Origin: an uncultured Actinomycetes bacterium
GTDB lineage: Bacteria; Actinomycetota; Actinomycetes; S36-B12; UBA5976
DNA length: 50,908 bases
Assembly: GCA_903892635.1 (NCBI GenBank)
Contig: CAITJH010000017.1
Location: 1-50,908 of the forward strand
Reading direction: 5' to 3'
Shown in pieces: positions 47,082-49,252 of this stretch (position 1 is the stretch's first letter; each line of letters begins with the position of its first letter). The position numbers and the translations under genes are program-made. The notes under the pieces were generated by a model. The model searched no databases, was not told the DNA's origin, and saw only the letters and a list, made by a program, of their open reading frames with translations.

Positions 47082-48355
47082 TCACGTTAACCGCGCACGA
47101 ACAAGACATGCTTGATGGCAAGCATGGGGAAGCGGTAGCGCTTTCTATGCGAATCATCACTGAACTCGGTCGAATTCGTGGCGCCAAGAAATTGATTGAC
47201 GTTGAGTCGGTTCACATTGATGGTTGCATCTTCTATGGTCAAGCGGGCCTTGATTTCGCAAACCGTTTAGTTGAACTCAATGCTCAAGTCACGATTCCAA
47301 CGACAGTGAATGTTGGCTCAATCGATCTGATTCACCCAGGGCTTGTGCTGGAAAATACCGAGCGCGAAAAGTGGGTTGCTGATGGCGCTCGAAAGATCAT
47401 GGCTGCTTACGCCGAACTAGGCGTCAAACAAACATGGACGTGTGCTCCGTATCAAGCCGATTCACGTCCTGAATTTGGTTCGAACATCGCATGGGCCGAG
47501 TCCAACGCCATCGTGTTCGCCAATTCAGTTCTGGGAGCACGTACAGATCGCTATGGCGACTTTCTTGACATCGCTGCGGCAATCACAGGCAAGGCACCAT
47601 ACGCTGGCTTGCATCTGGATGAAAACCGAGTTGGTCACGTCATCCTCGATTGTTCAGCACTGTCCGATCGCGTCCTCGATATAGACATCACGTATCCGAT
47701 TCTTGGCTACATTGGCGGACACATCGCAGGAACAAAAAATCCTGTCTATGTTGGACTGCCTAACGACCTTTCTGAAGATCGACTTAAGGCACTGGGAGCA
47801 GCTGCAGCATCGTCAGGGGGAGTGGCACTATTCCACGTTGTAGGACGTACTCCTGATGCGCCAACTCTCGAGGCCGTCGTCAGCGATGCTTCACAAGTGC
47901 CCGTGCATCACATCACACCAGAGACTTTGCGCGATGGACGCGAAGAGTTATGTACCGCGACGGAAACACAACTCGATGCAGTCAGCCTTGGCACACCGCA
48001 CGCATCAGTCGATGAAATTCGCGCACTCTACGACTTACTTGTCGGTGGGGAAGCGATAAGTCCTTCAGTGCAGTTTTATATCAACACCGGCCGAACAGTT
48101 CTTGGTCAAGCAGATGAATTGGGTCTCGTAAAACCGCTTGAAGCATTAGGCGTGAAGTTCATCGTTGACACGTGTGCGTACATCACCTCTGTATTCCGTG
48201 GACAAACTAAAACTGTCATGACCAACAGTGGGAAAGTGGCTCACTATGTTCCCGGCAACATGGGTGTTGATGCCGTTTTGGCGACTCTTGAAGAATGCGT
48301 TGCCTCGGCTCAATCTGGGGTAGTGACGTGGGATCGAGAGTTGTTCCATGACTAA
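47078..48355 (+). CDS. Aconitase X catalytic (large) subunit-like protein
   Basis: [63 protein letters not shown] overlap with gcvP. Confidence 0.88.
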
Positions 48356-48773
48356 CTCGACGATTATTCAGGCAACTGCCTTGACCTATGGCCACGGAAC
48401 CGGACAGGTGCTCAAACTAGACGATCCGGTGTCATTTTGGGGTGGAATTGACCACAACGGCATGATTAACGACGTTCATCACCCGCAACACGGCGTATAC
48501 GTCACAGAGCGGGTTTTAGCGATGACGTCAGGCAGAGGCTCAAGTTCGGGCGCATATTGCCTGATGGAGCTCCTACGGCTCGATTTGGCGCCCGCTGGAA
48601 TCGTTTTATGCGAACCTGATGGCATTATTTCTCTTGGCGCCTTGGCAGCCGCTGAAATCTACGACAAATGGCTACCAATCATCGAAATTAGTCTGTCTGA
48701 CTTTGAGATCTTGCAGGACGGTGTAACGGCCAAAGTGGATTCGGCAGTCACTGGCGCGAGTATCACTTACTGA
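48348..48773 (+). CDS. Aconitase X swivel-domain (small, DUF126) subunit-like protein
   Basis: LDDPVSFWGGIDHNGMINDVHHPQHG, MTSGRGSSSGAYCLMELLRL; overlaps large subunit. Confidence 0.88.
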   Translation: MTNSTIIQATALTYGHGTGQVLKLDDPVSFWGGIDHNGMINDVHHPQHGVYVTERVLAMTSGRGSSSGAYCLMELLRLDLAPAGIVLCEPDGIISLGALAAAEIYDKWLPIIEISLSDFEILQDGVTAKVDSAVTGASITY

Positions 48774-48806: not shown

Positions 48807-48906
48807 GCGATATCGGATGCAAATGCCGCCGAACACGCTCCATGAGCAAATGAATTTTCGCTCATGTCGCTTTTAGAGGTTCGGCTTACATTTCATCCGA
48901 CATCGC
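48807..48906. other. Long imperfect hairpin with nested inner hairpin
   Basis: GCGATaTCGGATGcAAATGccGCCGAAC pairs with GTTCGGCttaCATTTCATCCGAcATCGC (about 24 bp); inner CATGAGC/GCTCATG 7-bp stem. Confidence 0.85.
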
Positions 48907-48929
48907 CTAGCCGGTGACCAGATGGCTAG
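48907..48929. other. Short hairpin CTAGCC-N11-GGCTAG
   Basis: Perfect 6-bp inverted repeat immediately following the long hairpin. Confidence 0.75.
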
Positions 48930-49074
48930 CTGAGAACCCAGCAAGGTTCATGACATTTGGTTGACTCACGTGAGCGAGCTGAGAACCCAGCAAGGTTCAT
49001 GACATTTGGTTGACTTACGTGAGCGAGCTGAGAACCCAGCAAGGTTCATGACATTTGGTTGACTCACGTAAGTG
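48928..49074. repeat. Three contiguous 49-bp tandem repeats with internal dyads
   Basis: Unit AGCTGAGAACCCAGCAAGGTTCATGACATTTGGTTGACTCACGTGAGCG at 48928, 48977, 49026; only a few substitutions, confined to the CTCACGTGAG dyad and unit end. Confidence 0.97.
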
Positions 49075-49102
49075 AGTTGACATAATGTATCTTATCGGAT
49101 AG
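49075..49102 (-). other. dif: Putative dif site (XerC/XerD recombination site)
   Basis: Minus strand CTATCCGATAA-GATACA-TTATGTCAACT: 11-6-11 architecture; XerD arm TTATGTCAACT is 9/11 to E. coli TTATGTTAAAT; fits my recollection of actinobacterial dif (..CCGATAA..ACATTATGTCAA.T). Confidence 0.85.
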
Positions 49103-49252
49103 TTATTAACCCAATAAAGCCCGCTAATCAGCCATTTTCCAGATGATCCAAGAGGCACGCTCACAACATTGCCTGATTCTTACAGTTTCGTGAGGTTTAC
49201 CTTGACAGGGATCTGGGTACGTTGAGTGTGCACATCACAAAGGAGAATTTCG

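Follow-up and report, generated by a model that had tools for sequence, protein, structure and literature searches.

Genomic context of the dif site

The window, i.e. the whole stretch of 50,908 nucleotides analysed here, belongs to the genome of a small freshwater-type actinobacterium (assembly G000; 1.68 Mb, 92 contigs). At the locus of interest, gcvP and two aconitase X genes on the + strand are followed by a tandem array, a dif site, rbpA and then a glycosyltransferase gene on the − strand. The features considered below are as follows (negative offsets are counted outwards from the XerD arm of dif).

48348–48770, + strand: gene for the aconitase X small subunit (swivel domain), the upstream neighbour
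48815–48901, + strand: dispersed quasi-palindromic hairpin element, the neighbour of the array (similarity and covariation)
48928–48976, + strand: 49-bp unit 1, outermost (TRF and unit alignment)
48977–49025, + strand: 49-bp unit 2 (TRF and unit alignment)
49026–49074, + strand: 49-bp unit 3, abutting dif, different from units 1 and 2 at −9 and −6
49049–49060, + strand: TGACATTTGGTT, at the −29 place occupied in the sister species by TGACATTATGTC (9/12 identical; three-way alignment)
49075–49102, + strand: dif, with XerD arm AGTTGACATAA, centre TGTATC and XerC arm TTATCGGATAG (genus alignment)
49110–49138, + strand: XerC-side block, an imperfect inverted repeat (AAAsCC...GGsTTT), conserved in the genus and weak in this genome
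49253–49588, + strand: rbpA, the downstream neighbour

The dif site comprises 28 bp in the 11-6-11 layout of actinobacterial dif sites. Its core, CATAATGTATCTTATCGG, is invariant in all 20 aligned loci of the genus, and in these 20 genomes the site lies mostly between gcvP or acnX and rbpA. The genome-wide scans of G000, which were pattern or similarity searches, revealed one match to TGACATAATGTA, i.e. a single copy of dif. On a 1.09-Mb contig of the congener G015, GC skew falls at dif from +0.08 to −0.07 in the space of 20 kb, with a concomitant change of coding strand; both show the same trend in G013. This indicates that dif marks the terminus, and the site is a genuine chromosomal terminus dif. 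In G000 the gene strand also switches near dif, yet GC skew is close to 0 on its left side. Relative to G015 and G013, the skew of G000 is asymmetric (~0 over window positions 1–49075, about −0.06 over G000:C17 50000–130000), and left of dif nearly all genes point toward it despite the skew of ~0. Two tyrosine recombinase genes (PF00589), in which XerC and XerD were not told apart, are present in G000 and in most congeners.

On the XerC side, a conserved block was found at +34 to +59, about 10–36 bp past the XerC arm, which is kept in register with dif in 14 flank-non-redundant genomes of the genus. Its 17-base mean reaches 0.47 bits, against a background mean of 0.18 and a maximum of 0.31 in the distal left flank. 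The block stays at a fixed offset from dif, although the distance to rbpA ranges between 136 and ~300 bp. It resembles an inverted repeat, AAAsCC-N10-GGsTTT, which ties for first place among the six-pair stems scanned (61% paired versus 37% in the background). It may act as a terminator of transcription or as a binding site.

Structure of the tandem array

TRF detected a single tandem array in the window, at 48928–49080, with a period of 49, 3.1 copies and 95% matches; it is far beyond chance. Together with the unit alignment, this confirmed the original observation of three contiguous 49-bp units ending at 49074, beside dif (AGTTGACATAA-TGTATC-TTATCGGATAG), which starts directly after unit 3. 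Of the 49 positions, 46 are the same in all three units; the only variable ones, 40, 45 and 48, lie among the last 10 and leave an identical core of 39 bp.

The sub-features of the unit (hairpin, palindrome and GTTGAC) are weaker than the array itself. The hairpin and the palindrome ascribed to each unit are present, but a 5-bp hairpin (loop of 3–8) is seen in 20% of shuffled 61-mers and a 10-bp palindrome in 5%, and the palindrome is intact in unit 1 alone (CTCACGTGAG), with one change each in units 2 and 3. The arm of dif was also said to stand in register where a fourth unit would begin; a correspondence exists, in effect AG[CT]TGA, but the unit start AGCTGAGAACC agrees with AGTTGACATAA at just 6 of 11 positions. 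The likening of the GGTTGAC block to the XerD arm was not supported: the best match of the unit to AGTTGACATAA is 7/11, which is not above chance (p 0.49), and GTTGAC on either strand is seen in 3% of shuffled 61-mers. The best match to the XerD palindrome GACATWATGTC is 8/11 (p 0.09). Because of these values and the frequency of the hairpin in shuffled sequences, the units are not convincing as XerD arms.

Distribution of the array

It had been proposed that an accessory role of the array could be checked by its conservation in the dif flanks of related genomes. The unit was found in one of 23 genomes of the genus, in three copies, all at this locus in G000. A search with 33 bases and up to 3 mismatches found it in 0/22 congeners, of which even the nearest are different species with RbpA 79% and 76% identical and mostly unalignable intergenic DNA; this result speaks against such a role. 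The unit does not align as a whole to the flanks of the sister species either. A dispersed repeat was ruled out, as the unit occurs at this locus only. No match to the unit was obtained in phage records and no exact match in viral contigs, and plasmid records yielded a single weak hit, to 24 bp of the dif core, in a Gordonia plasmid; a phage or plasmid origin of the unit was rejected on these grounds. The array has the appearance of a dif flank duplicated locally, and is private to the species of the window. The data do not support its conservation in an accessory role, because the unit is absent from the 22 congeners and its match to the XerD arm does not exceed chance.

The searches also revealed dif-like sequences in other settings. 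The Gordonia polyisoprenivorans plasmid matches 24 bp of the dif core exactly, at a place with no annotated feature (NC_016907.1, 165037–165060), possibly a plasmid dimer-resolution site. An AT-rich phage-like contig from IMG/VR (IMGVR_UViG_3300004481_000204), whose ORFs we take to be terminase, portal and capsid genes, carries the exact 21-bp dif core TGACATAATGTATCTTATCGG near one end (L068, 284–304), and may integrate through the host XerCD. In the actinobacterial genome G038, two direct dif-like sites 842 bp apart flank genes for a Phd/YefM antitoxin and a ParE-type toxin (L022, 659–1524; G038:C7:81469–82334), which resembles the pdif modules of Acinetobacter plasmids.

The neighbouring hairpin element

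The quasi-palindromic element next to the array is one of a dispersed group (~85–95 bp) of 21 copies in 7 of the 23 genomes of the genus, 1–6 per genome (loci L055, L056, L057, L058, L059, L060, L061, L088–L091 and L095). Its stem shows strong covariation, with compensatory changes in 14 of 27 pairs, and an unpaired segment, CTTTTTAGAG, is nearly invariant. The copy beside dif has no match in Rfam, and the comparison of the locus with known RNA families gave only a sub-threshold chance microRNA hit; the element is apparently undescribed so far. It recurs at few intergenic places, which, going by our reading of the translations, are presumably those between ribH and hisE, before infC, between metK and priA, before dif and beside a methylmalonyl-CoA-mutase-like gene. 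Next to dif, G000 and G022 have copies that show few differences along 85 bp but point in opposite directions, the rest of the intergenic region being unalignable, and the copies before infC are likewise inverted between these genomes. Derivation of the 49-bp unit from this element was rejected, since the two show no similarity (p 0.29–0.55); the element is a neighbour and not a part of the array.

An additional XerD-like half-site in the sister species

In the two closest sister species of the window's species, G007 and G022, an intact palindrome resembling the XerD arm, GACATTATGTC, is found at a distance of exactly 29 bp from the XerD arm of dif, on its outer side. The motif TGACATWATGTM has 21 matches in the 23 genomes of the genus: 18 at dif, the two at −29 and one stray match elsewhere (G014:C33). 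The paired arrangement GACATWATGT-N8-38-TGACATAATGT was found in two of 166 genomes of the order, again only G007 and G022, and in none of the 397 genomes drawn from the phylum and 395 from the class, in a search requiring this exact dif arm. G007 contains further palindromes of graded quality, namely 11/11 at −29, 10/11 at −93 and 9/11 at −134; the spacings of 64 and 41 bp between them are not shared with the 49 bp of the window and are not helical multiples.

G007 and G022 share the 12-mer TGACATTATGTC without a difference, the flank outside it being unalignable between them. In the window, 9 of the 12 positions agree at this offset without any gap (chance 4e-4), and copies of the TGACATTTGGTT type are also present at 49000 (unit 2) and 48951 (unit 1), giving offsets of −29, −78 and −127. 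Because the match stands at a fixed place, the array unit most likely holds a decayed form of the half-site of the sisters. Judging by this placement, together with the intact palindromes in both sisters, this small clade is characterised by one more XerD-like half-site next to dif. In the sisters, the copy at −29 is probably a supplementary binding site for XerD. No extra tyrosine recombinase was seen in the clade as a candidate owner of the palindrome, with two such genes in G000 and two in G007. The RbpA tree did not resolve the branching of the three species, and any ancestral state at −29 rests on these three. For the idea of accessory XerD sites, the outcome is divided: the array is private and its units match the arm at 7/11, but an XerD-like half-site stands on the same side of dif in both closest sisters.

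Origin of the array and alternative explanations

We give about an even chance to the explanation that in this species alone the sequence immediately beyond the XerD arm of a true terminus dif was duplicated in tandem, the resulting array containing a decayed extra half-site. The ancestral flank in the clade of three species would have carried the palindrome GACATTATGTC at −29, which would have stayed intact in the sisters and decayed to GACATTTGGTT in the species of the window. The flank would then have been copied twice; the simplest route is slippage during replication, or unequal exchange, involving the AGCTGA that opens the unit and the AGTTGA that opens dif, 49 bp apart. The dif-proximal copy, unit 3, would be the constrained original, while the outer copies would be free, and the copies may now have little or no function. 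The T at −6 of unit 3 is the state kept in 18 of 20 dif flanks of the genus, and units 1 and 2 differ there, as would follow from unit 3 being the original. The microhomology of AGCTGA and AGTTGA extends to 5 of 6 bases only, which counts against slippage. The near-identity of the units (46/49) could also reflect selection, as age and constraint are indistinguishable in one genome.

It is possible, if somewhat doubtful, that the array consists of functional accessory sites that would be occupied by XerD, or by a different protein recognising the repeated GAACC-N6-GGTTC or CACGTG palindromes, and would aid synapsis, the order of strand exchange or SMC unloading at the terminus. The position of the array directly against the XerD arm, the palindromes in each unit, the XerD-like palindromes on the same side in the sisters (three graded ones in G007) and the three spaced decayed copies in the window are consistent with such a role. 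Its absence from all 22 congeners, the chance-level XerD-arm match, the broken palindrome of units 2 and 3, and the 49-bp spacing, neither common with the 64 and 41 bp of G007 nor a helical multiple, argue against it. It seems unlikely that the dif of this clade gained an outboard module of XerD half-sites (the palindrome at −29, more of them in G007, the three-unit array here) that would load extra XerD next to dif, either to bias strand exchange or to serve as a terminus platform for SMC unloading attached to dif itself.

Regulatory repeats, such as a promoter or operator of rbpA or of the AcnX operon, are improbable. A promoter-like TTGACT-16-CATAAT does span unit 3 and dif at 49059–49086, but shuffled sequences contain 0.6 such sites, the −10 is lacking in units 1 and 2, the candidate uses the dif arm itself, and rbpA starts ~150 bp further on, past dif and the XerC-side block. 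Elements using XerCD commonly target dif, and 26 bp beyond the array there is the hairpin element, whose counterpart next to dif in G022 is inverted; even so, we assign still less probability to the array having arisen from, or marking, an earlier insertion at dif of a mobile element, whether an XerCD-using one or the hairpin element, given the single dif-like site in G000, the dissimilarity of unit and hairpin element, and the dif core as the only plasmid hit besides the negative phage search. The fragmentation of this metagenome-derived assembly might suggest an artefact of contig construction, but single-base differences between the units, and the same order of dif and both flanking genes as in relatives, make this very improbable.

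Comparison with known systems

The plasmid sites cer and psi are accompanied by accessory sequences acting with PepA, ArgR and ArcA (PMC5357621). The locus studied here resembles them in layout, with additional DNA beside a Xer core site, and differs in that the ~180 bp of cer bound by PepA and ArgR are not known as tandem units. Another counterpart is the chromosomal dif of Frankia alni, CACGCCGATAATGCACATTATGTCAAGT (PMC3025954), which likewise has a 28-bp 11-6-11 core in one copy at the skew switch and an XerD arm, ACATTATGTCAACT, on the other strand. It differs from the dif of the window, which is flanked by a private 49-bp array, and from the loci of the sister species with their extra XerD-like palindrome at −29.

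Chromosomal dif sites are thought to need little beyond the 28-bp core and FtsK. At the terminus of Bacillus subtilis, XerD half-sites lacking an XerC partner unload SMC, and a role of XerD in SMC unloading has been proposed for Bacillus. The palindrome at −29 in the sister species would be a half-site of this type, whereas the unit of the window has no convincing half-site. The array matters less in this respect; it shows how fast the flanks of dif change while the core stays fixed. A lineage in which an extra XerD-like half-site is kept at a constant spacing from dif offers a natural test of whether XerD plays a part at the terminus beyond dif itself.
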